Shown here piece by piece: positions 30-15,250 of a stretch of DNA of 22,364 nucleotides (the stretch's first letter is position 1; every line of letters begins with the position of its first letter). The DNA comes from a virus. The notes beneath the pieces were generated by a model. The model made no database searches and was not told the DNA's origin. It saw nothing but the letters and a program-made list of their open reading frames with translations. Location of the stretch: IMG/VR virus record IMGVR_UViG_3300001450_000182, positions 6,482-28,845 of that record; one strand, given 5' to 3'. Position numbers and translations under genes: made by a program.

Positions 30-1583
30 ATGATAGTAGTAGAGAAATCAAAAGCAATAGCATTAAACTTAAAGAATCCTAACAGGGTATTAGATGTTAT
101 ACCTGATTCCAGACAACTAACGTTTAACAACCAGCAACTTGTTGTCACACCACATACAATACCTGCTTCCAGAGCATTACGTATGCTAGGATTTAAAGTA
201 CCCTCACCCATACTACATTATTACGATTGGTGTGGAGACTTTATCCCATATGAACATCAGAAAATGACATCAGCTTTTCTAACTATGAACGACAAAGCAT
301 TAGTACTCAATGAGATAGGTACAGGTAAAACACAATCAGCTCTGTGGGCATGTGATTATTTAATGCAGACAAAAGTTATTAAGAAAGTATTAATTATATC
401 ACCACTATCCACACTTGAGAGGGTATGGGGTGATGGTATCTTCATGGGGTTTCCACATAGACAGGCTGTTACACTACATGGAACTAGTGCTAGGAGAAAA
501 CAATTACTTAAGACTAATGCAGACTTCTTTATTATAAACCATGATGGGTTTGGAATTATATCTGAGGAGGCTAAGAATATGTTTGACCTCATCATAGTAG
601 ATGAGGCGGCTGTGTTACGTAACCCATCTACCAACAAGTTTAGGGTACTTAGAAAATATTTATCCCTGCACCCTAAGATAAAGTTATGGTTGATGACAGG
701 TACACCTACACCCAATGACCCAACAGACGCATGGGCACTAGCTAGATTAGTAGACAGTCCATATAACTCTAAGACTTTTACCTCATTTAGAGAGACAGTA
801 ATGATGAAGATAGGACAATGGAAATGGATACCAAGACCTGAATCAATAGAGATTGTAAAGCAAGTACTACATCCTGCTGTGCGATATAGCAGAGATGAGT
901 GTCTTGACCTACCTGATACTGTATTTCAGACTAGGAAAGTACCTCTTACTGTAGAACAAAAAGACCACCACGATAAAATGTTAAAGCATTATGTGACAGA
1001 ACTGGCACAGGAAGGCACGATAACAGCTGTCAATGAGGCAGTTAAACTACAGAAACTTGTGCAGATAAGTTGTGGTGTTGTGTACGGAGATGATGGTCAA
1101 CATATAGAATTAGATTGTGCACCTAGAGTTAACTTAGTTAAAGAAGTTATAGAAGAAGTAGGTGGCAAGGTAATAGTATTTGTTCCACTAACAGGAACAC
1201 TAAAGATGTTAGAGAGAATACTCTCAAAGCAATGGAGTGTTGGTGTAGTCAATGGTGCAGTTTCGGCTAATAAAAGAAACGAGATATTCCATAACTTCCA
1301 ACACACAAAAGACCCTCATGTCTTAGTAGCACACCCTGCAACTATGGCTCATGGTCTGACACTAACTTCTGCGAGCACTATCATATGGTACGGACCAGTG
1401 ACAAGCAACGAGCAATACGTTCAGGCGAATGGGAGAATAGAAAGGATAGGTAAAAAACACGTATCAAACATAGTACATATAGAGGCAACTGACCTTGAAC
1501 ATAAAATGTTTGAACGGCTAAAGAATAAACAGAAACTACAGGGTCTATTACTAGACCTAATTAAGGAGGGAACAATCGAATGA
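30..1583 (+). CDS. SNF2-type DEAD/H-box helicase (superfamily 2)
   Basis: A 517-aa ATP-dependent helicase or translocase of superfamily 2, SNF2/RapA-like, expected to remodel or unwind DNA during phage replication or recombination. The motifs appear in order: a Q-motif-like YEHQ (residues 74-77), Walker A GTGKT (97-101), Walker B box DEAA (191-194), motif III TGTP (223-226), motif V region AHGLTLT (440-446) and motif VI QANGRIERIGKK (465-476), which carries both arginine fingers. Both RecA-like lobes are therefore complete. The length is that of a minimal phage SNF2 protein without accessory domains. A purine-rich GAGAGA lies 6-12 nt before the ATG. The stop overlaps the next start (ATGA), so translation is probably coupled. 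The helicase class is clear; the exact role (fork restart, recombination or replication) is inferred from the neighbouring SSB and primase-helicase. Confidence 0.9.
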   Translation: MIVVEKSKAIALNLKNPNRVLDVIPDSRQLTFNNQQLVVTPHTIPASRALRMLGFKVPSPILHYYDWCGDFIPYEHQKMTSAFLTMNDKALVLNEIGTGKTQSALWACDYLMQTKVIKKVLIISPLSTLERVWGDGIFMGFPHRQAVTLHGTSARRKQLLKTNADFFIINHDGFGIISEEAKNMFDLIIVDEAAVLRNPSTNKFRVLRKYLSLHPKIKLWLMTGTPTPNDPTDAWALARLVDSPYNSKTFTSFRETVMMKIGQWKWIPRPESIEIVKQVLHPAVRYSRDECLDLPDTVFQTRKVPLTVEQKDHHDKMLKHYVTELAQEGTITAVNEAVKLQKLVQISCGVVYGDDGQHIELDCAPRVNLVKEVIEEVGGKVIVFVPLTGTLKMLERILSKQWSVGVVNGAVSANKRNEIFHNFQHTKDPHVLVAHPATMAHGLTLTSASTIIWYGPVTSNEQYVQANGRIERIGKKHVSNIVHIEATDLEHKMFERLKNKQKLQGLLLDLIKEGTIE

Positions 1584-1993
1584 CTATAAGAATAGTAACT
1601 GTAGATAAAGTTATATCTACATATATAAATTTTAGAAATCAGAAAGAGGCTATTGAATCTGAGTCTAAGGCAAAGGTCAAAGAGATAAAAGAACAGATGG
1701 CTAAGCTAGAGGCATGGCTAAAAGAAAAGGCAGACCAAGATGGTGTGGATTCTTTTAAGACAGCCAATGGTACAGCATTTCTAACGACCACTGACTTTGC
1801 ACAGGTAGCAGATTGGGACGCAACATTAGCTTTTATAAGAGAGAATGAGGCATTTGATTTGCTTGAGAAACGAGTTAGTAAGACAGCAGTACGTGGGTAT
1901 ATTGAGGCTGATAAGTCTGTACCAGCAGGTATAAACTATGGCACACGTATTGATATCAACGTTAGAAAACCCGTTGCTAAGGTGAGTGACTAA
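1580..1993 (+). CDS. Small coiled-coil phage protein of the replication block, unknown function
   Basis: A 137-aa protein. Residues about 14-55 are charged and heptad-like (many K/E, ending near EAWLKEKADQ), which predicts an N-terminal helical coiled coil. A compact domain follows: a FKTANGTAFL strand pair (59-68), the stretch VADWDATLAFI (76-86), ENEAFDLLEKRVSKTAV (88-104) and a C-terminal INYGTRIDINVRK strand (118-130). From memory, proteins with this coiled coil plus a WD..L.FI.EN..FDLLEKRVSK signature recur next to phage SSB and helicase genes, usually without an assigned function. The N-terminal coiled coil resembles Gam-type nuclease inhibitors in general form only, so I do not assign that role. 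The start is coupled to the helicase stop (ATGA), and AAGGAGG (1562-1568) lies 11 nt before the ATG. A DNA-metabolism role is inferred from position alone. Confidence 0.85.
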   Translation: MTIRIVTVDKVISTYINFRNQKEAIESESKAKVKEIKEQMAKLEAWLKEKADQDGVDSFKTANGTAFLTTTDFAQVADWDATLAFIRENEAFDLLEKRVSKTAVRGYIEADKSVPAGINYGTRIDINVRKPVAKVSD

Positions 1994-2670
1994 TGATTAG
2001 CTCAAGACTATCTATTAAAGATTCTCTCTTTCATATTGTGTCTCAGGATAAAACTGAAACACTTGAGCAAACAAGTCTAGACGTGGTAATCGTAGGTGCG
2101 AACCCTGGACTAGCTAAGCAATACTATGAAGGAGAATTTTCTGCTGATAGAGAGTCGTATACACCTGACTGTTATTCACTTGATGGTATAACACCTAATA
2201 AAAATAGTGCCCTAATTCAAAGTGATGTATGTGCACTGTGCCCTCAAAATTCATGGGGGTCTAGAGTTACACCACAAGGATTTAAAGTTAAAGCATGTTC
2301 CGATATTAAAAGACTTGCTATTACTTTTGCAGACAAACCTAAAGAAATTTATCTACTGCAAGTAACCCCTTCATCTTTGAAGAGTTTGAACGCATATCAA
2401 AAGACATTGTCTATGAGAGGTATTGCACCTGAGATTAGTAAGACAACACTGTCGTTTGATACTGAAGTTACATTCCCTAAACTTAAGTTTAAGTTTGGTG
2501 GTCTTGTTTCTAAAGACGCTCAATCATACGTCGATTCGATTATCGATTCAGACGTTGTAAAGATGGTGACAGGTGAACTTGCTGTGACAAATAAACCAAC
2601 TACTCCCGCAGAAGAATATGGATTCACTGAGGAAGTAGGATACACAATCAACAATAAGTCGGAGGACTAA
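1993..2670 (+). CDS. Four-cysteine phage protein, probable metal-binding, unknown function
   Basis: A 225-aa protein that begins on the last base of the previous stop (TAATG) behind an AAGGTGAG ribosome-binding site. Its only cysteines are C60, C80, C83 and C102, spaced C-x19-C-x2-C-x18-C. They sit in the conserved-looking segments VVIVGANPGLAKQYY (31-45), PDCYS (58-62), DVCALCPQNSWGS (78-90) and KACSDIKRLAI (100-110). Four cysteines with a central CxxC suggest one structural zinc or, less likely, an iron-sulphur cluster. The C-terminus (about 196-225) is polar and probably disordered. I recall the same CxxCP.N.WGS...KACSD arrangement in other phage replication modules, lying between a helicase-type gene and an SSB gene, but without an experimental function. 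The context points to a partner of ssDNA or the SSB; this is inference. Confidence 0.85.
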   Translation: MISSRLSIKDSLFHIVSQDKTETLEQTSLDVVIVGANPGLAKQYYEGEFSADRESYTPDCYSLDGITPNKNSALIQSDVCALCPQNSWGSRVTPQGFKVKACSDIKRLAITFADKPKEIYLLQVTPSSLKSLNAYQKTLSMRGIAPEISKTTLSFDTEVTFPKLKFKFGGLVSKDAQSYVDSIIDSDVVKMVTGELAVTNKPTTPAEEYGFTEEVGYTINNKSED

Positions 2671-2672
2671 AC

Positions 2673-3389
2673 ATGACAACAAAAATATTAACACCAAAAG
2701 GCATAGCTCACTACCCGTATATCAGTAAGCCTGATGAAGGCAGAGAGTATTCGGATGGTAAGTACAAAGTTAATCTATCTATACCTGCTGAAGAAGCTCA
2801 GCCTATAATCGAGCAAATCAATGCTGTATTACTTGCTGGTATCAAAGCTGAGAAAGATAAAAACCCTAACAAGAAAATAAAATCAGCTCCAATACCTTAT
2901 AGTAATGAAGTGGATGAAGACGGAAATGAAACAGGCAATGTTATTATTAAGTTTAAATCTAAATACAAACCATCTGTAGTGGACGCAAAGAACAACCTAA
3001 TGGTAGACCATAATATATATGGTGGCTCAGTGCTCAGAGTGGGTGGTGTGGTATCATTTTACAACTCAGCTATTGGTTGTGGTGTAACTATAAGACTCGG
3101 AGCTGTTCAGATTATTGAATACGTTGAGGGTAGTGCGGGTGGAAACTTTGGATTCGGTGAAGAAGAAGGCTTTACTTTCTCTTCCGATGAGTCGACAGAC
3201 ACACCTGGAGAAGTTGACATAAGTGTTAACGTTCCCGCTGCCGCTGCAGAAGTTGCACCAACAAAACCCAAAGCTAAACCTAAAGCTAAACCAGTACCAG
3301 TTGAAGAGCCTGCACCAGTTGCAGTAGCTACAGAAGGTAGTAGTCTAGCAGATGAGATAGCTGCATTAGTGGGAGGGACTGATGACTAA
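2673..3389 (+). CDS. DUF2815-like single-stranded DNA-binding protein
   Basis: A 238-aa protein resembling the DUF2815 / T7 gp2.5-type OB-fold ssDNA-binding family. It would coat and protect single strands and contact replication enzymes. Family-like features are TPKGIAHYPYISKPD (7-21), the DGKYKVNLSIP strand (28-38), VIIKFKSKYKPSVVD (90-104), NIYGGSVLRVGGVVSFYN (114-131) and a glycine-rich GCGVTIRLGAVQIIEY strand (135-150). After the core comes an acidic G/E/F segment (154-180), then a flexible linker with KPKAKPKAKP (198-207) and a tail ending in GGTDD. An acidic C-terminal tail is the usual partner-docking element of SSB proteins. A strong GGAGG at 2661-2665 precedes the ATG by 7 nt. The last 8 nt overlap the next gene. 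Other phage recombination-type ssDNA-binding proteins are possible but less likely. Confidence 0.75.
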   Translation: MTTKILTPKGIAHYPYISKPDEGREYSDGKYKVNLSIPAEEAQPIIEQINAVLLAGIKAEKDKNPNKKIKSAPIPYSNEVDEDGNETGNVIIKFKSKYKPSVVDAKNNLMVDHNIYGGSVLRVGGVVSFYNSAIGCGVTIRLGAVQIIEYVEGSAGGNFGFGEEEGFTFSSDESTDTPGEVDISVNVPAAAAEVAPTKPKAKPKAKPVPVEEPAPVAVATEGSSLADEIAALVGGTDD

Positions 3390-3663
3390 ACCTCTTCCAT
3401 TAGACTTTAAAAAAGTGGAAGCTCTTAGAAAACATATGTTACTTACAACAAGTAACATAGCTGTGTTACTTGAAGTATCTCGTATGACATATTATGGATG
3501 GGTCAAAGGGAAACCTACTCGTAAAAATAATGAAGATAGAGTGAGAGTTACATTGAGAAAGCTATTGAAAGCTATGGAGGGTGGATGGCCTATGCCTGAA
3601 ATCATTGCACTAGAGCAGAAAAATAGATTCAAAAGGCTTCTTGAGCTTTTAGATAAAAAATAA
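3382..3663 (+). CDS. Small helix-turn-helix DNA-binding protein
   Basis: A 93-aa protein with a Cro/C1-type helix-turn-helix at about residues 22-43: an NIAVLLEVS helix, a short turn, then the RMTYYGWVKG recognition helix. A basic stretch follows (KGKPTRKNNEDRVRVTLRK, 42-60), then an amphipathic C-terminal helix rich in K/L (80-93). It probably binds DNA as a small phage regulator or as an accessory to replication. The start lies inside the SSB gene (8-nt overlap) behind a GGGAGGG ribosome-binding site at 3371-3377, so expression is tied to the SSB. It is followed by a 79-nt leader with a hairpin, which would be a natural operator or control region. Repressor, activator and origin-binding roles cannot be separated from the sequence. 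Confidence 0.8.
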   Translation: MTKPLPLDFKKVEALRKHMLLTTSNIAVLLEVSRMTYYGWVKGKPTRKNNEDRVRVTLRKLLKAMEGGWPMPEIIALEQKNRFKRLLELLDKK

Positions 3664-3742
3664 TAGTATAAATAATACGGGTGGTTAAGATTAGTTGTTT
3701 TCTCCTAGCCACCTTAATGAGTAATCGAGGGGAGAGTATATC
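3664..3742 (+). promoter_or_regulatory. Leader with hairpin and possible promoter before the primase-helicase
   Basis: This is the only sizeable gap in the plus-strand block. An A/T-rich element TATAAATAAT (3667-3676) could serve as a -10 box, but no good -35 box is spaced to it. An imperfect inverted repeat, GGTGGTTA (3680-3687) with TAGCCACC (3706-3713), makes an 8-bp stem with one G-U pair and an 18-nt loop. No T-run follows, so it does not look like a standard intrinsic terminator. The 3' part of the loop contains TCTCC (3701-3705), which is complementary to GGAGA (3731-3735) inside the ribosome-binding site of the next gene. It may therefore act in translation control or as a target for the preceding HTH protein; both are inferences. 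Confidence 0.35.
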
Positions 3743-6598
3743 ATGAATATGTTGGAATTTTTCCAGCAAGTATTACCGACAGAGGGATTCTATGTTACTA
3801 CAGTTATTAATACTGATGGCAGAAAGCAAGGATTTTTTAAGACAGTAGACGAGCTGGCACAAGTATGCGAAAGATTAGATAAGACTAAGAACAATACTTA
3901 CTTTGCTATATCTGCATTCAAACAGAAGGGTAACAGGAAGCAAGACAACGTACGAGCTACTAAAGTTATAGCTATAGACGTAGACTGTGGACCTACTAAA
4001 CCCTATCCATCTTGGAAAGAAGGGCTATCAGCACTGGGTAAATTTGTAGATGAGATGGGCTTACCTAAGCCTATGATTATACACTCAGGTAATGGACTGC
4101 ATGTGTACTGGTTACTAGAAAAAGAACTACCTCCTGAAGATTGGAGACCCCTAGCTGAAGCTATGAAGCAAGCAGCTATAGATAAAGAATTTAAAATTGA
4201 CGCAGGACTTACAGCAAACAGTGCACTAGTACTAAGACCTATAGGCACACACAATCCAAAGAACGGGAATGAAGTTAAACTATTAGTACCATCTAAACCT
4301 ATTGACAACATGGTGATACAAGACTGTCTATCGTATTACTACCGTCGAGATGTACGGTCAGACAGTAGTTCATTACAGGACAACTCGTTGCTGTCTAATT
4401 TAGCTAGTAACCAAGAACATCAACCAGCTATAGGCTCTATTGTTGCTACTAAGTGTAAGCAAATAGAGTGGGCTATGGCTAATCAGGACAAGGTAGACGA
4501 GCCATTATGGTACAGCATGATAGGAGTAGCTGCATTTTGTACTGACCCTGAGAAGACAGCTATAGAGTGGTCTAAAGGACACAGCAGATATAATGAAAGA
4601 GCAACCATAGACAAACTTGTTCAGTGGAGAGAGTCGGCTTCGGGCCCGGCAACCTGTTCGAAGTTTGAAACAGACAGACCCACTGGATGTAAGGGCTGTA
4701 AATACAAAGGTAAGATAGGCTCACCAGCTAGGCTGGGAGTACAATACCAAGAGACTCCTGTAATTAAGGAAGCTCCTGATACACTAGCTAACTCAGTACC
4801 CATGCCTAAACCTTTTAAAAGAACTAAAGAGGGTATAAAGCTAACCCTAGATGACACAGATATAGACGTGTGTAAGTTTGATATATACCCTGTAGCTTAT
4901 GGGTATGATGAATCATTAGGATACGAGACAGTAAGGTATCATTGGAATAGACCTCACATGGGGTGGCAAGAACTTGTGTTAAGGCAAGCTCATCTCACTG
5001 ATGGAAGCCGTGAGTTTCCTAGTGCTATAGCAGACCAAGGTATTGTATTGTACAATAAGAAACAAACGGAGTACTTCCAGCTTATGTTAAGAACTTACAT
5101 GGATGAACTAAGACAGATTCGGACAATGACTAACTTGTATTCTACTATGGGTTGGAAGGAACATAACAAATCATTTATCTTAGGTAACACTATACTAAGG
5201 CGTAAGGATGATGGGTCAGTTACAGAGGAGAAGATTAACCTAGCTTCAGTTGTATCCAAGAGCAGTACAGATATGTTCAGTACTAAGGGCTCACTGCAAC
5301 AGTGGGTTAACCTGACTTCTGTATTAGAGAAAGCTAATCTTAAATCACATATGTTTGTACTAGGTGTAGGATTTTCAGCACCTCTATATAATTTTACTGG
5401 ACTTAAAGGATTGACAGTATCACTGTATGGACCAACGGGCGGTGGTAAAACACTGGCTCAGTACTGGGCACAGTCTATATATGGCAACCCTGACAAGCTA
5501 CACTTTGCTGCCAAGTACACACAGAACAGTTTGTTCTCACGTCTTGGTACATACGCTAACCTACCGCTTACTATAGATGAAGTAACTATGATGAATGATA
5601 AAGAGGTCGGAGACTTCTGTTACTGGGTATCCCAAGGTAGAGATAAAGCTAGACTTAATCGTAACTCAGAAGAACGTGACGCTAAATCATGGGCTACACC
5701 TGTCATAGTATCTACCAACAAGTCTCTACAAAGTAAGCTAATTGCTTCTGGTTTAGATACAGACGCACAGATGGCTAGACTATTAGAAGTAACAGTCCCT
5801 TCATCAGCTGTGTTTACTAGAGATACTAATGTAGGTAAAAAGATTTACGATGCAATCCATACTAACTATGGTGAAGCTGGTAAGGTATTCATTAAGAAGT
5901 TACTTGAGATGGGGGAAGAAGGAATCCAGTCTGCTATAGCAGAAGCCACAGCTAACTTCCATAAGAAATACAAAGCTAAGTTTAGTGGTGAAGAAAGATA
6001 CTGGGAGCAAGCAATCATACTATCTGATTTATCTATGAGCCTTGCTAAAGATTGGGGTCTAATAGACTTTGAGTATGAGCAGTCTACTGAGTGGGTACTT
6101 GCTCAGATAGGAGCTATCCGTAGGTCAGTACAAGAGAATCAAGTAGACGCATTTGATTTAGTTGCAGAGTACATGGCTGACTCAGCTGATACATCTGTTA
6201 CTGTCATGCATACCATAGGTCAGAAATCACAGCCTGATTTCTCTAGGATACCAAGAGGAGATATAAGAATAAGATTAGATGTATATCGTAAGTCTGCATT
6301 AGAACAGTTTGATAAAGGCACAATGATGGTAGACCGAACTCACTTTAGGAAGTGGTTGTCTGTGCGTGGTGCTGACTACAAGACATTCAAACAGGAACTT
6401 GTTGATGAGAACGTGGTCGCTACTCCTAGGTCGGAGAAAGCGTCACTAGGTAAAGACACTCCAGTTAAATTAGCACAGCAGTATGTGATTGGATTTAATC
6501 TAACTCACCCTAGATTTCAAAGCCTGTTAGAAAATGCTGATGTAGAAGCAGATGACCTATCATACGGACAATTACAGGTGATTGACAAAAAACCATAG
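3743..6598 (+). CDS. Bifunctional primase-helicase: archaeo-eukaryotic (PrimPol) primase plus DUF927-type SF3-like helicase
   Basis: A 951-aa replication protein. The N-terminal half (about 1-200) matches archaeo-eukaryotic primases: the catalytic acidic pair in IAIDVD (D79 and D81), the nucleotide-binding SGNGLH (115-120) and a third motif around LRPIGTHNPKNG (164-175). It would synthesise primers. A middle segment has C305, C316 and C319, a probable zinc-binding knuckle (GCKGCKYKG). The C-terminal half is a DUF927-like hexameric helicase ATPase: Walker A GPTGGGKT (563-570), Walker B LTIDE (609-613, D612/E613) and sensor-1 STN (657-659). This is the usual domain order for phage and mobile-element replicative primase-helicases, which stand in for DnaG plus DnaB. 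An AGGGGAGAG ribosome-binding site (3728-3736) lies 6 nt before the ATG; a second in-frame ATG at 3749 is an alternative start. The protein is full length with no missing key residue seen. Confidence 0.88.
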   Translation: MNMLEFFQQVLPTEGFYVTTVINTDGRKQGFFKTVDELAQVCERLDKTKNNTYFAISAFKQKGNRKQDNVRATKVIAIDVDCGPTKPYPSWKEGLSALGKFVDEMGLPKPMIIHSGNGLHVYWLLEKELPPEDWRPLAEAMKQAAIDKEFKIDAGLTANSALVLRPIGTHNPKNGNEVKLLVPSKPIDNMVIQDCLSYYYRRDVRSDSSSLQDNSLLSNLASNQEHQPAIGSIVATKCKQIEWAMANQDKVDEPLWYSMIGVAAFCTDPEKTAIEWSKGHSRYNERATIDKLVQWRESASGPATCSKFETDRPTGCKGCKYKGKIGSPARLGVQYQETPVIKEAPDTLANSVPMPKPFKRTKEGIKLTLDDTDIDVCKFDIYPVAYGYDESLGYETVRYHWNRPHMGWQELVLRQAHLTDGSREFPSAIADQGIVLYNKKQTEYFQLMLRTYMDELRQIRTMTNLYSTMGWKEHNKSFILGNTILRRKDDGSVTEEKINLASVVSKSSTDMFSTKGSLQQWVNLTSVLEKANLKSHMFVLGVGFSAPLYNFTGLKGLTVSLYGPTGGGKTLAQYWAQSIYGNPDKLHFAAKYTQNSLFSRLGTYANLPLTIDEVTMMNDKEVGDFCYWVSQGRDKARLNRNSEERDAKSWATPVIVSTNKSLQSKLIASGLDTDAQMARLLEVTVPSSAVFTRDTNVGKKIYDAIHTNYGEAGKVFIKKLLEMGEEGIQSAIAEATANFHKKYKAKFSGEERYWEQAIILSDLSMSLAKDWGLIDFEYEQSTEWVLAQIGAIRRSVQENQVDAFDLVAEYMADSADTSVTVMHTIGQKSQPDFSRIPRGDIRIRLDVYRKSALEQFDKGTMMVDRTHFRKWLSVRGADYKTFKQELVDENVVATPRSEKASLGKDTPVKLAQQYVIGFNLTHPRFQSLLENADVEADDLSYGQLQVIDKKP

Positions 6599-6661: not shown

Positions 6662-9600
6662 CTACTCTAAGTCATCACTGTCTAAACCGTAGGCTTCCAT
6701 CATACGCCTTATTTCTAATTTATCTTGTCTTGCTGAGTATTTTAAAAGTTCTTTACTAACAGGTTGAGTAAATGCTTGGTATGCTCTTCTAACTTTAGTA
6801 CCAAAGTTTCTAATCTCAAGTCCTGTGCCTTCAGCATTGTCATTAAACTCTTCTACATTTCTTAGTACTCTGTTCATTTCTTCATTGTCATTGTCTATTT
6901 GAGCTCTTACCATTTGGTTTACATATCTTGTAGAAAGTTCTTTTCTATAAGCATCTCTTTGTTTTACCATCCTTACAATATCGTAAGTATATGTAGACCT
7001 AGCTGGGTAAAAATTTAATGCTCTCATAATTATTTCTGAAGTAGTTACATCATGGGTTATAATTTTTCCGTCAGAGTTAGTAATCTTACCATCCTTATAA
7101 AAAATGCCTGCTTCTACGAGACCTTTAATTCCACTTAAAGGTGCTTTTCTAAAAACTTTTTCAAAGCTTGTGTCTTCTAGCAGACCTGCTGCTTCAGGAA
7201 TTTGCCTTAATGTTCCTGTTATAAGTCCATATATACCCTTTACAGCTGAATAGACAGGCCCAGCAAAGTTTTCTGTTTCACGTTTGAAATTTGCTCCTGC
7301 TTTAAAAGACCCCGTTAGTGGTATTAAATCACTAAAGCCTAATCGTGTAGATACTGTACCTCCAAGATAGTAATCTGTAATACCTCTTTGTAAAATTATA
7401 GGAGATATGCCTAAACTTTCTGCTATATCATCTATTTCTTTTTCTATAGGTTGTAGTTTAATCTCAAGTTTTTGAACTAATGTATCTATTAAATCTCCAA
7501 AGTCTTCAGAGAACGGTATGCCTTTCATTCCAGTAAATAAAATTAATAGTCCTATCATAGCTATTTGTTCTTTAGGAGCTAAGCTTGCCATAAGTTGTAT
7601 AGTAATAATTACAAATTGTTTATACATAAAGATGTATTGAAAAAACCTACCACGAGCCATTTTTGGTCTGTTGTACATTCCATATTCACCTTGCGATTTA
7701 TTTACCGCATCGGTAGCAAATAGTATTGAATTTTGTTTAGCATCTTCTACACTTTGTCCTGCGTCTAATAGTTTTTTTTGTTGTAGTCTATAAGCTGCTA
7801 AGAATGTAGCTCTTCTATTAAGCTGTTCCGTGTAAGAAAATATAGACATCCAAGTTCTGATTGCTGCTGCTACTCTTGGATTGGCTTGTAGCCCGCCTCT
7901 AGCAGAACCTACTAATGCATTAAATTGAGCTGCTTGTAAAACTCCTTGTGCTGTAGCTACTTCTAAAGCATCTGCTTCATTTTGAGTTATGTTATGTTTT
8001 TTCTGCAGTGCTTTGCTAGCTTTAACTTTTCGCACATAATCAATATTAGATAATGCAGTTTTTTCAGTTCTTATTGAAGACTTTACTTGTTGTGTTAAAT
8101 CACTCATGTTAGCTACAGCTGTTGTCATTTCTTTTGCTGCGTTTACTAAACCAAAGCCGCCGCCAAAACCGCTTTTTGAATTGTAGGTTGCTAAGTAAGG
8201 TATACTATGTGTTATCATAGATACCATATTTATTGCCCCTGTAGCAAATGACCCACCTAACTGCGTTACAACAGTTGCTAGTTTTAAAACAGTGCCAGGT
8301 GTTTTACCTAATATTTCATCTTCAGTATTTACATCTATGTTTGCAGCGTCTGCGTAAAATTGTTGTAATTCAGCTGCGTCTCTTCTATAAACTTCACCTA
8401 TACCTAATGTTTGTTTTAACTCAGACTTTCTATTAAATCCTTTTCCTTTATATATACGAACAGTATTATTAGCTGCTTTGTCTCTCATATGAAGATATTT
8501 ATATGCATACCTGTCATATAAACTTTGTGCTTCAAGTAATCTATTTATGTTTCCTTGTTTTTCAGCAAGTTCCATTTTGTCACGCAACTGTTTTAATTTT
8601 CTATCATCGCCTCTCCACATTTTAGTGTCTAACATAATAGAATCAACTTTATACATATAGAAAGCTTTACCTGCTCTATGTGTTTCAGTTTCTAAATGTT
8701 GAGATATTTTTTGAATAACATTAGTATCCCAACCTTCTACGTTAGCTCTCTCTAAATAACTTCTAGCTTTCTTGCCTTGGTCTGCAAGAGCTAACACAAG
8801 TTTCTTTCTACCCGCTGGTGCTATAGGAATACCTAATCTTTTTAAAACATTATCTACTTCGTTTAAACTAATTTGATTTGCAGTAAGAGGAGCTACGTTT
8901 GGAGCAATAGATGACTCAGCTCTAAGAGTTACTTCTTGCATTACTCCTGTTCCATCATCAAGCTTAAACGATTGTAAGTTACCAAATTGTTCTTCTAATC
9001 TATCTCTTATTTCATCTGCACTTTTAAAGCTATCGACTTGGTAATACGGTAGTGAGGTCTTAAAGTGTGCAGGTATTTCAACTCGATTACCAGTTCTATC
9101 ATAAGCATTGATTTGTACTTGATATGCTCCTTCTCTATTAAAAGGTACATAGCCACCCATTATTGTACGTTTAGCGTTTGCTTCTGCATTTTGATTTCTT
9201 ATATCTAAATCAAACATATCTTGTATGCCGTCAGTTATTTTATATGCAGACTTAGTAAGACTGTTTGTGTTACCTGCGTCAGGATTGTTGTACAATTTAT
9301 TTAGTCTTTCTAATCCTTGAACTATACTATCTAAATTTTCTATGTTTTTAAATTGTTGTGTTTCATTTGTTACATCTTTACCTGCTTTCCAATCAGCTAC
9401 TTTTAAATCTTTATGTAGAGCACGGTTAATTTGTGCTATAAATTCTATAGCTTTATCAGAATTTGGGTACTCTATACCACTATCAGTTTCTACTGCGTCC
9501 TCTAAGTATATTTTTTTATACTCTTCCATAATATCTTTAATGGTTTGTAAGTCTAAATCTGTAGGTAACTGATTATCTACGCCAGCAAAAGTTTTAAAAT

Positions 9601-12600
9601 TTTCTATAGTATCTTTTCGTTGTTGTACTGTTGCTTGTAAGTTTGCTTCTAGCACATCTACAGCCGCTTGGTTAACAGCATTACGTTGTTCCATATATAC
9701 TTTATATACGTTATCAGTAATAGAAAAACTTGGTCTGTATAAACCACCTGGAACTCCTAAGTCTCCTTCTAACTCTACAGGTAATCCTTCCATAAATTGT
9801 TGTCGTGACACTATACCAATTTGTGCAAGTTCTGCTAATGCATTAGGATTAATTATAAGTTCGCCCTCTCCATTATACGCAGTTAAATCTTTTGCATTTC
9901 TAATCTTAGCAGCGTCTAGTTGTCTAAGTTTGTATATAGCAGCATAGGCTAATAACTCACCTGCTTGTTGTCGTTCTTGTTCAGTTGAACGAGTAGCCAA
10001 AATACCAGAGCCGTGGGTAAATTTTGTTAACTCAGCATACTCTTGTTGTAATCTTCTTACTCTACCAGTTTGGTCTTGGAATATTCTAAATATATATGAT
10101 AGTCCTTCACTACGAGTAGCTTTGTTATCTAATGATTGAAGCGTTTCTTTAAGTATCTGTGTAAACGTTTGTGGATTTCTTTCTGATTTTTTTAACCCTT
10201 TAATTTTTTTAGTAGCTTTATCTACATAGTCTTGAACTTTTTTTACAGCGTTTGAATCCGCATTAGTAATTCTATTGTATGTTTGAGATAAACTAGCATG
10301 AAGTTTAGTCATTAAGTTAGTTGAATTTTGAGCTGCGTAATAACGTCCTCTAGCACCATAATCATTTAACTCTAATAAATTTGCTTGTATCTGAGGAACT
10401 GACACTACACCAAAGTTTCCTCTAGATATATTTCTACGTGATTGTTTTATTAGATACTCTTCCATCCCTTCCATAGAACCAGGGTTAAATATTCTTCCCA
10501 GAAAACTTCCTACTCCATTCCAAATTTTTCCTATAGTTGTAGTTTCTACTGCATGAACTGCATGGTCAGCTAGTACTTCTTCTATAGCTTCATGAAACTC
10601 CATACCACTTACTATGTTCATATCTGCTGATAGTTTTATGTTTGGGTCTTCTCTATAAGCTGCTCTTAAGATGGCGTTCAATCTAGCTTTAGGCATAAAT
10701 GCTGAGAAGCCAAAGTGACCTAAAGTTTCATGGCCAATTACAAACCTAACTGAATCTTCAGTCATAGCATAGTCACTAAATATAATAATCTGGTCTCCTA
10801 TTGAATACCCTATAGCAGGAGTTGTATCAAAATCTCCATCAGGTCTTCCTTCATTAGCTAGTTTATATAGCTTAGGATTATTGTCTTTTAAATCCTGAAC
10901 ATTTTTAACTATGGTAACTGTAGGTTTTATCTTAAGTTTCTTTAGAAGTTGGTTTACAATTAATTTAATCTTACCCTGCGGTATAGGAGCTCCTATTTCT
11001 TTATCAGTGTCAAATCTTTTTAGTCTTCCTTTTGGATTATCATCTAATAAATGGTTAGGGCTTGGCATAGTTTTAGACTTAATTTTACCTACTTTTAGTT
11101 TTGCAACTTTGTTAGCTCTAATTCTATCTTGTTGGATTTTTTTATCTGCATCAGTTTGTTCTACTGTAATAGGTCTTATAAAACCATCTGCATCTTTAAG
11201 GTATTTTAAATCTCCTGTACCGTTATCTTTAAAGTAATCTTTAATTTGTTCGTTTGTTCCGTTACCTCTGTCTCTGTCTAGTTCATAATTTATATCAACT
11301 TTGTCGCGTAAATCTATAAGTTCTTTAATTTTTCCACTGCTTAAAGATTTACCTTTAGAATATCCTTTTTTAATCTTGTCTAAAATGTTTTCAAACTTTT
11401 CTTCCATAGATATATCTTTGTTAGTACCTGGTAGCGTAGTACGCAGTCTATCTCCATCTGTTTCACCAGGTAAGCTTGGGTCAATAGCTCCGTATTGAGA
11501 CAATCTTTCAGGTAAATTAATTATGTTTACCCCCTTACTTATTAAAGCTTCAAACAAACCTTGTTCTTCAGCAAAAGACACCCATCTTTTTTCTCTTTGC
11601 GGAGTTCCTTCTGGTTGGTTTATGTTAGCAGACTCAAGAGTTTTACCTTCTACTCCATACGCTATTATACTTTCTATAAATTTATCGTTTATTAAATCTT
11701 GTTGAGCGTCACTAAATTTACCAGTAGATATAGACAAGTATGTGGCTGCTGCTTTGTTAACATCTTTTGCCCCATCGAAATGAGCAAGCATTATAATGTC
11801 TTCTATTGCTTCTGTAGTTCGCTCGTTAGTATTCATAGCTCCTACATCTTCTTCTAATATTTGTTTAGAGATATCAAACAAAGCAGTTGGACCAAATGCA
11901 CTATCCTTTCTATCCATTTCTAGCATAGTATCTTTAGCGTTTAGATATATTTGTTCTGCTATTTGATAAGGGTTTCTTTTTTTCTTACTACCTAAAAGAC
12001 CTCCGTTAAATAGCTGTGTAAATTCTTCTTGTTGTTGTTCAGGCAACATAGTAAATTCAACTTGTGGATATAAAAATAATTTATTCCAAGCTTGTGTAAC
12101 ATTTTCAAACCCAGTGTTTACACTATCTTCCCCCGTTTGATTGGCTGATTGATTAGCTTGTTGACTGTCAATTTGCTCTCGAATTTCCCCAGCGGTGTCT
12201 TGGCTTTCGTCGCCTTGTAATACTTTTTCTGTCTCTTGCGTTTCTCCGACAGGCTCTTCAACCCTATTCTCTGTGGTAGTTGTGCTCCCTTGGGGGTCTC
12301 CTTGAGTAACAGATTCGCTATCTCCGGCTTGTTTTCTTTCAACCATTTCAGCTGGGCCTTGCTTTTTATCATTTTGTGCTACTCCTTTTTTTGGCATTGT
12401 TCTTATAGCAAAATCACTCATAGCTTCTACAGCATCATTGCCAAACGATACTATTAAACCACGTGCATCCTGTACAAATCTTTCGTGTTGTTCTTTTGTA
12501 CCATTAAGTTGTACAAAGTTAACTCCACCAGAAGGTATAGGTGTATATGATTCTGTAAGTTCTGCGTTATCTATTTCAGCTTGAGTATCTACACTGTTAA

Positions 12601-15250
12601 AACTTTCACTTAATTGATAAAGAACTTTCCCACCTACAATTTTACGGAACGCTGTTTCCTCACCTGCTTCTTGTTCTTTCTTTTCAGCGTCTTCTAAAAT
12701 TTTTGCGTTTCGTTTATTATCTTCATCTATTTGTTTTTGTTCGTTAACATTTTTATTTTCTTTTGTTTCAGCTACTGGTGTAGAATTTTTTATAGCCTTT
12801 TCTATAGCAATTAAATCATTGAGCACACTGTTTGTCTGTGCATTACTTACTACTTTTCCTTTAGTATCAAGCCATTTGCTAATCTTAGCTTGTGCTGATT
12901 TTAACTCATTAAGACTTAGTGCACTTAAAGCTTTACCTTTAGCTCCTTCAAGACCTGTAATTGTTTTAGCCGATTTAATTTTGTAAGTTATATTGTCAAC
13001 ATTGTTATTAAGATTATCGTTATCTGTTTGTTCTTGTTCTTTGTTTTTATTATTAATTATTTCTTTAAGTGCGTTTTCATTTTTCTTTTCTTGTTCAATT
13101 TTTAATTGTTCTGCTTCATATGCAGCTGCTATCCTTTCGTTTTCTGCTTTAATTTTAGCATTCTGAGCTTTCATTTTAGCATCGTTAAATTCTTTAAATC
13201 TAGCTTTTGCTTCTTCAATTTTTATAGGTTTTGATACTAACTCTTTGTTCTCGTTTAATACTGCAGATTCTGTGCTTCTTCCAAATTGATTAGTGCCGTC
13301 AGTATATTCATAATTATAATATGCTGTATCACTTAACCCTAGTGCACTTCCAGTACTTTTATCCGCAGTTGAGTTGTAGGATGTAATTAGTGCTTCTCTT
13401 CCACCAACAGTTACTATCTCTCCTATTGCAATAGCTGACGACTCTTCCCCCCTTCCTTCTTTAATTCTTTTACCACGAGATTTGCTAATAACAGGTTTCT
13501 TATCTAGGTCTGTTACTACTGGTTGTGTCCCTCTTCTTAAATCTTTGGTACGTACTACTGGGTCAACAGTTTCTTCTGCAACTTTTTTTCTTCTTGTTTC
13601 TAAAATTTTTTGTAATGCGTTTTGTATAGATGCTTCATCTACTTTAGGTTTATCTTCAGGTGTAATTACTTCAGGTGCAACTTCAGGTGCAACTTCAGGT
13701 GCAATCGCAGCTCCACTCATAGTTTTAGCAGTTGGTGTGCTATCACTTGGAGGTTTAGAAGGACCAACAGTTGGTCGTATAGGTTGTAAATCTGGGTTTC
13801 TATCAGAGTCTAGTATATTTATAGGAGCATTAGATTTAATACTAGCCGCTCCACCTAATGGACCACCAATAAAGAACCCTGCTGCAAACCCATTTATTAA
13901 TCTACGTCCAGTTTCAGCGTCACCTAATTGGTTTGTTGCACCTAATAGTAGACTTTCTTGTGCTAACTCAGTGCCACCTTCAAGTAAACCACCACCTAAA
14001 AATCCTCCTATTACTCTTCTTGCTAATTTAGGTTGTTTTGATTTTAGCCCTTTTGTTGGTAAACCAAAAACTTTAGCTGCTAAGAAAAACTCAGGAATGA
14101 CTTCAGAGATTGCGTAAGGAAAAGAACCTAAGAACGCAGTCATTCTATCGCCTACTCCTGTATCTCGTATCTCACCGTATATATCTGCTTGACCTAATTG
14201 TTGAGAACCAATAAGAGATGCACCGGCTGCAGAATCTATTACATTTCTTTTTCGGGCTACAGCTTTTATTTTTCTAGCACCTGCTAGTGCCATATCTTCA
14301 AGTACTTCTTTGCTTTCTCTTTTTGCAAGTTCTTTTCCAGTTAAAGCAACACCACCTGAAGTTACATAAAAAGCTTTTGGATTTTTAATTGCTAGAGCTG
14401 CACCTATACCCGACACTTCTTGTAATAATTTTTTTTCAGCTGGCGTAACTTTTTTACCTGCTAAGTATTTTTTAGATGCTTGCATTACACCTTTTTTAAA
14501 AGCTTCTTTTTGTAGCAATGCAGTTATAGCTCCACCAACTGTAGACAGTGGGTTTGCACCTGCTGCTGCACCTATTCCTGCACCTACTGCAGCTACAGTC
14601 ATAGATTCTAATATCATAGGTCCTTGTTGACCTAGGTTAGCTACAAACCAATCTACAAATCCGTCTTGGAAATACTCTCCTTCTTCATTTAACATCTCTC
14701 TTTGAAATGGTTGATTGTAGTATAATTCTTTAACTGCTTCGTCGACCCACTCTTGACCCGTCTCTTCTTTATCATAAAACTGTAACCCTCTACCAGTTAA
14801 TAGTTTTAAGTTACTTACACCTATATCAAAATTTTTACCAAACAAGGTTCCAAGACCAGGGTCTTTTATGTTCTTCATGTATTTACCATAAGCTTCAGGA
14901 GTAACTCGTTGCCAATCTTGTATATCTTTTGGTGTCTTAGCTCTTGGTCTATCTAAAAATTTTTCTGCTTCTAAAGCTGAGGTTGCGTCTTCTTTGTCAA
15001 ACATAGCACCGTTAACAAAAACTTTGTTAGCTGATGGGCTAAATAAAACTGAAGGTCCTGTTGGTATGTCTTCGTCTACAGCTGTTGAATAATCTCCTAG
15101 CTGTTCTGCAGCAATGAGTGCAGATTGAAATGCATCAGGAGTATTAGATGGAGCTGAGGGAGTTAGTGTAAATGGATTAGCATCAGGGTCTTCTGCTATA
15201 TTAGAGCTAAATGGATTACTCGATGTATCTAGTCCAACTTCATCAACCAC
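6662..15250 (-). CDS. Giant polyvalent internal virion protein with zinc metallopeptidase and LPD38-like C-terminus
   Basis: A 2862-aa protein, probably packaged in the capsid and ejected into the host with the DNA, in the position of T7 gp16 but over twice its 1318 aa. Visible regions: disordered start (1-60); hydrophobic Gly/Ala stretch (211-246); Gly-rich segment with EGGTELAQE (424-432), often seen in phage ejection proteins; an APEV repeat near 516-527; K/E/Q-rich coiled coil (about 675-755); polar linker (about 945-1050); a zincin-type peptidase with HETLGH (1507-1512), where H1507, E1508 and H1512 form the HExxH site and EE at 1557-1558 may give the third ligand; long helical regions; and a C-terminus from about 2316 with hydrophobic segments and GIPFSEDFGDLID (from 2577), resembling large-polyvalent-protein domain LPD38. 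The start is GTG, chosen because GAGGT lies 7 nt upstream. The peptidase may process virion or host proteins (inference). No lytic transglycosylase was recognised. Confidence 0.82.
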   Translation of the reverse strand: MVDEVGLDTSSNPFSSNIAEDPDANPFTLTPSAPSNTPDAFQSALIAAEQLGDYSTAVDEDIPTGPSVLFSPSANKVFVNGAMFDKEDATSALEAEKFLDRPRAKTPKDIQDWQRVTPEAYGKYMKNIKDPGLGTLFGKNFDIGVSNLKLLTGRGLQFYDKEETGQEWVDEAVKELYYNQPFQREMLNEEGEYFQDGFVDWFVANLGQQGPMILESMTVAAVGAGIGAAAGANPLSTVGGAITALLQKEAFKKGVMQASKKYLAGKKVTPAEKKLLQEVSGIGAALAIKNPKAFYVTSGGVALTGKELAKRESKEVLEDMALAGARKIKAVARKRNVIDSAAGASLIGSQQLGQADIYGEIRDTGVGDRMTAFLGSFPYAISEVIPEFFLAAKVFGLPTKGLKSKQPKLARRVIGGFLGGGLLEGGTELAQESLLLGATNQLGDAETGRRLINGFAAGFFIGGPLGGAASIKSNAPINILDSDRNPDLQPIRPTVGPSKPPSDSTPTAKTMSGAAIAPEVAPEVAPEVITPEDKPKVDEASIQNALQKILETRRKKVAEETVDPVVRTKDLRRGTQPVVTDLDKKPVISKSRGKRIKEGRGEESSAIAIGEIVTVGGREALITSYNSTADKSTGSALGLSDTAYYNYEYTDGTNQFGRSTESAVLNENKELVSKPIKIEEAKARFKEFNDAKMKAQNAKIKAENERIAAAYEAEQLKIEQEKKNENALKEIINNKNKEQEQTDNDNLNNNVDNITYKIKSAKTITGLEGAKGKALSALSLNELKSAQAKISKWLDTKGKVVSNAQTNSVLNDLIAIEKAIKNSTPVAETKENKNVNEQKQIDEDNKRNAKILEDAEKKEQEAGEETAFRKIVGGKVLYQLSESFNSVDTQAEIDNAELTESYTPIPSGGVNFVQLNGTKEQHERFVQDARGLIVSFGNDAVEAMSDFAIRTMPKKGVAQNDKKQGPAEMVERKQAGDSESVTQGDPQGSTTTTENRVEEPVGETQETEKVLQGDESQDTAGEIREQIDSQQANQSANQTGEDSVNTGFENVTQAWNKLFLYPQVEFTMLPEQQQEEFTQLFNGGLLGSKKKRNPYQIAEQIYLNAKDTMLEMDRKDSAFGPTALFDISKQILEEDVGAMNTNERTTEAIEDIIMLAHFDGAKDVNKAAATYLSISTGKFSDAQQDLINDKFIESIIAYGVEGKTLESANINQPEGTPQREKRWVSFAEEQGLFEALISKGVNIINLPERLSQYGAIDPSLPGETDGDRLRTTLPGTNKDISMEEKFENILDKIKKGYSKGKSLSSGKIKELIDLRDKVDINYELDRDRGNGTNEQIKDYFKDNGTGDLKYLKDADGFIRPITVEQTDADKKIQQDRIRANKVAKLKVGKIKSKTMPSPNHLLDDNPKGRLKRFDTDKEIGAPIPQGKIKLIVNQLLKKLKIKPTVTIVKNVQDLKDNNPKLYKLANEGRPDGDFDTTPAIGYSIGDQIIIFSDYAMTEDSVRFVIGHETLGHFGFSAFMPKARLNAILRAAYREDPNIKLSADMNIVSGMEFHEAIEEVLADHAVHAVETTTIGKIWNGVGSFLGRIFNPGSMEGMEEYLIKQSRRNISRGNFGVVSVPQIQANLLELNDYGARGRYYAAQNSTNLMTKLHASLSQTYNRITNADSNAVKKVQDYVDKATKKIKGLKKSERNPQTFTQILKETLQSLDNKATRSEGLSYIFRIFQDQTGRVRRLQQEYAELTKFTHGSGILATRSTEQERQQAGELLAYAAIYKLRQLDAAKIRNAKDLTAYNGEGELIINPNALAELAQIGIVSRQQFMEGLPVELEGDLGVPGGLYRPSFSITDNVYKVYMEQRNAVNQAAVDVLEANLQATVQQRKDTIENFKTFAGVDNQLPTDLDLQTIKDIMEEYKKIYLEDAVETDSGIEYPNSDKAIEFIAQINRALHKDLKVADWKAGKDVTNETQQFKNIENLDSIVQGLERLNKLYNNPDAGNTNSLTKSAYKITDGIQDMFDLDIRNQNAEANAKRTIMGGYVPFNREGAYQVQINAYDRTGNRVEIPAHFKTSLPYYQVDSFKSADEIRDRLEEQFGNLQSFKLDDGTGVMQEVTLRAESSIAPNVAPLTANQISLNEVDNVLKRLGIPIAPAGRKKLVLALADQGKKARSYLERANVEGWDTNVIQKISQHLETETHRAGKAFYMYKVDSIMLDTKMWRGDDRKLKQLRDKMELAEKQGNINRLLEAQSLYDRYAYKYLHMRDKAANNTVRIYKGKGFNRKSELKQTLGIGEVYRRDAAELQQFYADAANIDVNTEDEILGKTPGTVLKLATVVTQLGGSFATGAINMVSMITHSIPYLATYNSKSGFGGGFGLVNAAKEMTTAVANMSDLTQQVKSSIRTEKTALSNIDYVRKVKASKALQKKHNITQNEADALEVATAQGVLQAAQFNALVGSARGGLQANPRVAAAIRTWMSIFSYTEQLNRRATFLAAYRLQQKKLLDAGQSVEDAKQNSILFATDAVNKSQGEYGMYNRPKMARGRFFQYIFMYKQFVIITIQLMASLAPKEQIAMIGLLILFTGMKGIPFSEDFGDLIDTLVQKLEIKLQPIEKEIDDIAESLGISPIILQRGITDYYLGGTVSTRLGFSDLIPLTGSFKAGANFKRETENFAGPVYSAVKGIYGLITGTLRQIPEAAGLLEDTSFEKVFRKAPLSGIKGLVEAGIFYKDGKITNSDGKIITHDVTTSEIIMRALNFYPARSTYTYDIVRMVKQRDAYRKELSTRYVNQMVRAQIDNDNEEMNRVLRNVEEFNDNAEGTGLEIRNFGTKVRRAYQAFTQPVSKELLKYSARQDKLEIRRMMEAYGLDSDDLE
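12118..12372 (-). CDS. Possible overprinted small gene nested inside the giant gene (84 aa, basic)
   Basis: An 84-aa frame on the same strand as the giant gene but in another reading frame, from ATG (12370-12372) to TAA (12118-12120). AAAGGAG (12382-12388) lies 9 nt before the ATG, a better ribosome-binding site than most genes here have. The product is strongly basic. Its first half, SKAQLKWLKENKPEIA (4-19) followed by ETPKGAQLPQRI (25-36), looks like the small phage proteins of the pattern SKAQ..W....P.IA....TP....LP.R that I recall as frequent but uncharacterised; the second half is Lys-rich. G+C counted over 12121-12360 is 114/240 (47.5%), against 19/60 and 17/60 in the next lines on either side, so the composition shift coincides with this frame. 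In the giant frame the same bases encode a low-complexity polar linker, which could tolerate a second frame. Expression is not shown. Confidence 0.5.
   Translation of the reverse strand: MIKSKAQLKWLKENKPEIANLLLKETPKGAQLPQRIGLKSLSEKRKRQKKYYKATKAKTPLGKFESKLTVNKLINQPIKRGKIV
13668..13703. repeat. Three tandem copies of a 12-bp unit
   Basis: The unit acttcaggtgca occurs three times head to tail with no mismatch. In the giant protein it encodes Ala-Pro-Glu-Val repeated three times (about residues 516-527), part of a proline-rich flexible linker between the Gly-rich N-terminal region and the rest of the protein. The copy number probably varies by slippage. Confidence 0.85.

Follow-up and report, generated by a model that had tools for sequence, protein, structure and literature searches.

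A conserved family of small phage genes nested out of frame in DarB-like giant genes and in other phage genes, with both readings apparently under selection

Overlapping genes are usually explained by the birth of a new reading frame over an old gene. Among the described phage systems, the embedded two-component spanins (e.g. lambda Rz1 inside Rz) likewise involve a small gene that lies within a larger one in another frame and has its own start. According to the part of PMC6139136 that was available, 182 such embedded systems are known, which are often missed by annotation; the embedded gene lies in the gene of its own partner, and no spanin family described in that part mixes embedded with overlapped or separated architectures. 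Small genes within larger phage genes are also represented by the single-gene lysis (sgl) genes of leviviruses, which are characterised in the accessible sections of PMC7693330 by rapid de novo evolution and a lack of mutual sequence similarity. DarB-like virion proteins are included in the polyvalent protein class described in PMC5512222, the main text of which does not contain the word 'overlapping'. In a literature search that had most subscription papers and preprints outside its scope, neither a description of the small-protein family reported here nor a nested gene in DarB-like or portal-adjacent genes was found, and no mention of phrog_1375 as a family identifier was encountered in the literature.

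The reading frame analysed here is located in a window (i.e. the whole stretch of DNA under study) of 22,364 nt, representing positions 6,482 to 28,845 of IMG/VR record IMGVR_UViG_3300001450_000182, and its 84-aa product belongs to the MPFKSEKQ/SKAQ small phage protein family. In contrast to the spanins, this family mixes separate, fused and nested genes, and the product does not resemble an o-spanin (Rz1-like protein), as its 84 aa include no cysteine and hence no lipobox. Whereas sgl genes occur in RNA phages and share no sequence similarity, nested MPFKSEKQ genes are found in DNA phages and are mutually homologous. The same N-terminal core and size class are seen in phrog_1375 and in free-standing MPFKSEKQ proteins (URG13095.1 and the product of FlowerPower gene 48). 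However, the latter are encoded by separate genes, while a second frame places constraints on the nested ones, and most members of the nested window family possess an extra C-terminal half that the free-standing proteins do not. The surrounding gene product resembles DarB-like polyvalent virion proteins in its C-terminal PHROGs matches and in a HExxGH motif.

The nested small gene (12118..12372, minus strand) starts with ATG and encodes a basic protein (24 K+R vs 5 D+E). It lies wholly within, and on the same strand as, the DarB-like/polyvalent giant gene (6662..15250, minus strand; 2862 aa with a GTG start), shifted by one base with respect to the codons of the latter. As described in the initial annotation, the small frame possesses its own AAAGGAG Shine-Dalgarno-like site (12382..12388, minus strand), which ends 9 nt before the ATG, and the giant frame encodes a polar linker across the shared bases (12116..12370, minus strand; residues 961-1045), which is acidic, with 20 D+E and 7 K+R among 83 residues. 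The giant matched phrog_11358 over its C-terminal part (7.7e-35) and phrog_10089, 'DarB-like antirestriction', over residues 2410-2845 (2.5e-14), and no effector domain (methylase or helicase) was matched above the Pfam cut-off. Its HETLGH motif (10715..10732, minus strand; residues 1507-1512) is zincin-like by pattern, an assignment made by eye and from the HEXXH-domain description in the available part of PMC5512222, with H, E, G and H being invariant across seven aligned giants. A 211-codon open frame antisense to the giant was also observed (13482-14117, plus strand). Elsewhere in the window, a 137-aa protein (1580-1993, plus strand) matched phrog_13900, 'minor head protein' (7e-27), and its gene adjoins DNA-metabolism genes (helicase, primase/helicase).

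Searches with the small protein yielded five viral loci when the single protein was used, 10 with a profile and 14 with a wider profile, and the C-terminal 1450 residues of the giant (7 rows) recovered 96 confirmed relatives, of which the best 80 were used. Using six-frame HMM searches, the small ORF was identified in 47 of 85 locus rows, corresponding to 43 distinct records (four rows repeat a record) and 37 unique sequences. All 47 ORFs were located on the strand of the giant, and in 46 rows the ORF lies within the longest (giant) ORF, with an offset of 1 every time, among nest-bearing giants that are down to 32% identical. The suggestion that the 84-aa frame is an overprinted gene was thereby strengthened, the same phase being found in 43 distinct records. 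The start codon is conserved as ATG, with GTG in L050 and L088, and 35 of the 37 unique relatives have a GGAG, GAGG or AGGA core no more than 18 nt from the start, the remaining two being L078, with only 3 nt of upstream sequence, and L068, where no core was found.

The small ORF is present in 35 of the 44 giants whose 5' end is intact, a proportion that is biased upward because the giants were gathered with a profile built from small-gene-carrying giants. This count omits 29 of the 38 rows without the ORF, in which the giant is 5'-cut (17) or not the longest frame (12), as well as four repeated records, seven ORF-bearing 5'-cut giants and the split giant L085; it includes L075, which is cut at the 3' end. 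The initial annotation had envisaged giants that lack the linker residues and lie next to a free-standing copy of the small gene. Nine giants without the small ORF were indeed identified (L046, L048, L056, L058, L063, L065, L066, L075 and L093), but no other copy was present in the seven of these that were searched as whole records, which may be fragments, suggesting that the small gene is dispensable somewhere. In a FastTree phylogeny of the C-terminal regions, the ORF was found throughout one large clade (30 of 30 sampled members) and was patchy in deeper branches; the sample was seeded with ORF-bearing giants, omits L075 and L093, and has L062, L076 and L082 labelled as ORF-less though their giants are 5'-cut. 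This distribution fits an old nest with losses, repeated gains being another possible account. No cultured phage with a nested copy was found, including in the searched regions of elemo (Flavobacterium), ctfjg026 and Panino (Maribacter).

Change in the two frames was compared, as had been proposed at the outset, with a result in favour of an overprinted gene. Across 666 pairs of the 37 sequences, substitutions were rarest at position 2 and commonest at position 3 of the small frame in every divergence bin, and 655 of the 658 pairs that could be binned (8 lay outside the bins) showed the small protein to be better conserved than the giant's translation of these bases. In 13 chosen pairs, positions 1, 2 and 3 of the giant frame exhibited 0.222, 0.137 and 0.087 substitutions per site in the overlap, compared with 0.134, 0.090 and 0.242 in a 900-codon segment of the giant whose start lies about 300 codons downstream of the overlap. 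This inversion of the codon-position pattern was observed in 11 of the 13 pairs (exceptions: L036-L092 and L040-L045; chi2 179.8, p 9e-40), the p value being too small since five pairs share members (three among the window, L016 and L017, and two with L021).

Random synonymous recoding of the small protein introduced a mean of 9.2 stops into the giant frame, and the openness of this frame was improbable at P<0.001 in 31 and at P<0.01 in 35 of the 37 sequences, with the short L050 and L085 giving about P 0.05. The third frame contained 197 stops in 2826 codons, and was open in one sequence and closed in 36. These patterns demonstrate, at the level of sequence comparison, that both readings are maintained by selection, and within the overlap it is the giant frame, and not the small frame, that appears to change like the passive one. 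On this basis, the 84-aa ORF is almost certainly a gene. The notion that the linker is newly created protein is plausible in so far as its changes look like side effects of those in the small frame, even though the giant reading is kept open and polar.

The base composition of the overlap was analysed in the same sequences. In the window, the reported G+C content of 47.5% was reproduced (0.475 in 12121-12360), whereas the adjoining 240-nt windows, at 0.317 and 0.350, are slightly above the 'about 30%' originally given. Mean overlap G+C across the relatives was 0.504 (range 0.333 to 0.591), compared with a mean flank value of 0.418. Recoding predicted an overlap G+C of 0.373 from the giant's own codon use and of 0.391 when stop avoidance was added; stop avoidance was thus rejected as the full cause of the increase. 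Third-position T in the overlap was 0.028, compared with 0.128 predicted with stop avoidance, indicating that T-first codons (Phe, Leu, Ser, Tyr, Cys and Trp) are also avoided in the giant frame. In three of the four G+C-rich phages (flank of at least 0.54), the difference between overlap and flank was gone or reversed (L050, 0.567/0.603; L085, 0.591/0.611; L088, 0.545/0.548), the fourth, L073, retaining an excess of 0.022 (0.569 vs 0.547). The A+T-rich L068 also runs against the trend (0.333 vs 0.348). The G+C jump, which had been read as a trace of inserted DNA, was therefore discarded as a mark of foreign origin, and looks like a reflection of double coding, the simplest account being that no overlap base is a third codon position in both frames.

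The family core, MPFKSEKQRRYLxANxPxIA, occurs in separate genes, at the N-terminus of longer proteins and in nested genes. An HMM derived from 35 unique non-nested members of <90 aa was run against the 28,008 ORFs of 88 loci and picked out every one of the 47 nested window-family ORFs, with E-values from 2.7e-19 to 1.1e-4 (the window) and the next match at 0.59; the free-standing genes had been gathered with a profile that included nested members, which represents a bias. Membership of a recurrent small-protein family, as claimed initially, was thus corroborated, though PHROGs alone provided only phrog_18036 (E=0.26) for the window protein and no direct match to phrog_1375, which was matched by the relatives L088 (7e-4) and L040 (2.8e-3). 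Against named phages, tblastn of the window protein returned nothing significant. With diverged members, it returned short ORFs in five named phages, every alignment starting at the first codon of the ORF; the E-values, of 0.02 to 1, are weak singly. These correspond to separate, unannotated genes in Prochlorococcus phage P-RSP2 (L109, 3501-3620), phage C75C1 (L110, 3001-3102) and Synechococcus phage S-CBS2 (L111, 3001-3108), a separate, annotated gene in phage 023Pt_psg01 (URG13095.1) and the separate gene 48 of Streptomyces phage FlowerPower.

Scanning viral contigs with a diverged-member profile produced at least 600 matching stretches, at least 457 of which contained relatives; the family is abundant and widespread among phages. 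Among the best 80 of these relatives, 49 were not nested, 30 lay in a longer sense frame and one in an antisense frame; 10 of the 49 form the N-terminus of proteins of 212-712 aa (L118, L127, L134, L138, L143, L171, L173, L182, L190 and L191). Exactly one full-length copy, nested or not, was present in 48 of 56 records searched whole, and none in the other eight; this count includes the weak L197 and L198 (E about 1e-6), the nesting of which was not checked, and excludes two 12-residue matches (E 0.003 and 0.008). The analysis thereby points to a gene that is common among phages, present in single copy and liable to be overlooked in annotation, as in P-RSP2, C75C1 and S-CBS2. ORF-less giants gave only weak HMM matches, none better than E 1.4, which were not accepted as members. 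A pattern scan of bacterial and archaeal genomes matched 219 stretches, none of which was confirmed as a relative, and the best Pfam match of the small protein (Uds1 family, 3.6e-4, seen for 2 of 40 members) was taken as chance.

The 30 sense nests were associated with distinct host genes: 14 are located in a gene for a protein of ~400 aa, 12 in a second giant family, two members of which (L142 and L160) match the unknown-function family phrog_32588, and three in DarB-like giants (L115, L159 and L163). The remaining one, L132, is in another phase within a surrounding frame of only 158 codons, and was taken as chance. Profile comparison of the three host families outside the nest revealed no similarity (probability <1%, E 0.24 to 0.31), with profiles that are thin at 3 to 7 rows each, and BLAST hits connecting the ~400-aa host with the second giant around the nest were dismissed as low-complexity. 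A second scan employed a DNA pattern with TTC at Phe3, the codon that a nest requires before AAR, and hence favours nests. Among the 80 loci listed of 120 matching stretches, 59 were nested, all in the same phase, 18 were not nested and three started longer proteins. The nearest known hosts of these 59 nests are the ~400-aa kind (53), the second giant (5) and the DarB-like giant (1), and at least nine of the nested records repeat the earlier set.

The use of a single phase is explained by the codon table, since a stop in the surrounding frame there needs T as the third base of a small-frame codon and a synonym ending in C is available for every codon that ends in T. Among positions with a T-ending synonym, a stop-making T (small-frame position 3 before AA, AG or GA) was found at 0 of 800 in the window family, compared with T at 79 of 955 elsewhere. 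The counts were likewise 0/142 for the ~400-aa host, 0/132 for the second giant family and 0/40 for other DarB-like giants, as opposed to 241/532 in non-nested relatives (48 members, first 45 codons). A Shine-Dalgarno core was absent before the nests in the ~400-aa host (0/14) and the second giant (0/12), and their leaders are A-rich. Homologues of the ~400-aa host occur in Flavobacterium elemo phages, and a Bacteroidota-type start is presumably used by these nests. The relatives of the ~400-aa host in elemo and ctfjg026 contain no nested ORF and have a shorter N-terminal tail.

The genomic setting of the family points to the head module. In both loci tested (L161 and L177), the ~400-aa host directly follows the portal gene (phrog_6547), and in L161 it precedes a virion structural gene (phrog_13704). 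For loci with a separate small gene, 17 were laid out, neighbours were scanned for 14 and the nearest upstream gene of at least 200 aa for 13; L132 and L149 were counted as separate despite a short other-phase or antisense frame across them. The portal gene was this nearest upstream gene in seven of the 13, adjacent in some and up to about 1 kb away in others, while the other six were represented by a major head protein, a tail fibre, the second giant (one each) and three genes without a family. A scaffolding gene lies downstream of the small gene in L186, and the downstream gene scanned in L259 had no family. Where the core starts a longer protein, the portal gene was immediately upstream in four of six tested loci, and a virion structural protein was encoded by the nearest upstream gene in the other two. 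These findings suggest a home position just after the portal gene, where the small gene may be separate, fused in frame or engulfed out of frame. For the window, a head-module association is carried over from other phages, as its host gene is not beside a portal gene.

AlphaFold2 predicted four helices in the small protein (residues 5-14, 16-25, 41-58 and 63-74; mean pLDDT 80, pTM 0.48). No solved fold matched in the PDB (best E=10), and the best BFVD matches (E=0.05) were uncharacterised 44-aa phage proteins; a function-bearing homologue was found in none of Pfam, PHROGs (unknown-function families only), PDB and BFVD. Position, size and charge tentatively suggest, at somewhat short of even odds, a role as an accessory protein of head morphogenesis, made with the virion proteins and binding either an acidic partner or DNA. 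Such binding would run through the two conserved N-terminal helices, with the scaffold, the portal or the giant itself as candidate acidic partner.

Taken together, we consider it about 90% probable, judging from comparative genomics, that the 84-aa frame is a genuine gene, that both readings are selected and that its family is nested in three host-gene families. The surrounding giant virion-type gene would supply the mRNA, on which translation of the small gene would begin internally, at its own Shine-Dalgarno sequence and ATG; the giant frame would decode the shared bases as a flexible acidic linker. Family members are often found as separate genes near a portal gene, and those in the three host-gene families are nested in the one phase in which stops can always be silently removed. 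The ORF is short, the giant linker is of low complexity and the window protein has no significant match in PHROGs or named-phage tblastn, all of which would also be expected of a chance open frame arising from the amino-acid composition of a polar linker. This explanation is given next to no credence, considering the conservation with an inverted codon-position pattern, the conserved start and ribosome-binding site, the homology to free-standing genes and the closed third frame in 36 of 37 sequences.

With regard to origin, one homologous microgene family has probably become nested repeatedly in unrelated virion genes, by engulfment or relocation and not by de novo overprinting, a reading that also covers the single silently clearable phase, the one copy per phage and the three states (separate, in-frame N-terminus and nest). 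In the portal-adjacent host, there is about an even chance that the nest arose in place, the post-portal gene having extended upstream across the small gene; in the giants, relocation of the small gene is needed. De novo birth of the small gene over an older giant, with its outside resemblance being secondary, would be consistent with the small frame being +1 to that of the giant, an arrangement that the Willis study, as reviewed in the part of PMC8227390 that was seen, identified as the most frequent among internal overlaps of de novo origin, and with the age of the nest in the giant clade. It is nevertheless very improbable, given that other phages contain non-nested homologues that share the N-terminus, that the family is also nested in other host genes, where independent births would not yield homologous proteins, and that the passive-like change in the overlap belongs to the giant frame. 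The small gene looks like the older, conserved partner, and the giant's reading like a by-product. Recent insertion of the small ORF as foreign DNA into the linker, visible as a composition jump, is unlikely, though less so than de novo birth. It would accommodate variable flanks (L015 has its upstream flank in common with the window and its downstream flank with L014), the existence of giants without the ORF and the G+C excess over flanks in most A+T-rich phages, L068 being an exception. However, this excess vanishes or reverses in three of four G+C-rich phages, and the presence of the ORF in all 30 sampled main-clade members means that it is not recent there. Moreover, comparison of giants with and without the ORF revealed replacement by unrelated residues and no clean insertion; the candidate empty site of L056 (compared with L196 and L115) was rejected, as its linker is replaced and not simply missing. 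The simple insertion put forward initially is not supported by these observations; the nest is old, and its origin by insertion is only a possibility. The separate, fused and nested homologues together allow the path into and out of overlap to be followed.

Two further observations concern the architecture of the giants. In L085, the giant is split into halves at 1566-4349 and 8336-14215, with the C-terminal half 4 kb further on and five ORFs in between. The N-terminal half, 927 aa long and 29-45% identical to the N-terminal parts of other giants in the alignments listed, contains the small ORF close to its end, in another frame. This split might hold a clue to how the giant was put together, or else be an assembly rearrangement. 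In L088 and L115, MORN-like repeats were noted by eye in the giant linker just before the nest and are absent in near relatives; their occurrence in the variable linker of some giants only suggests that this linker takes up modules.
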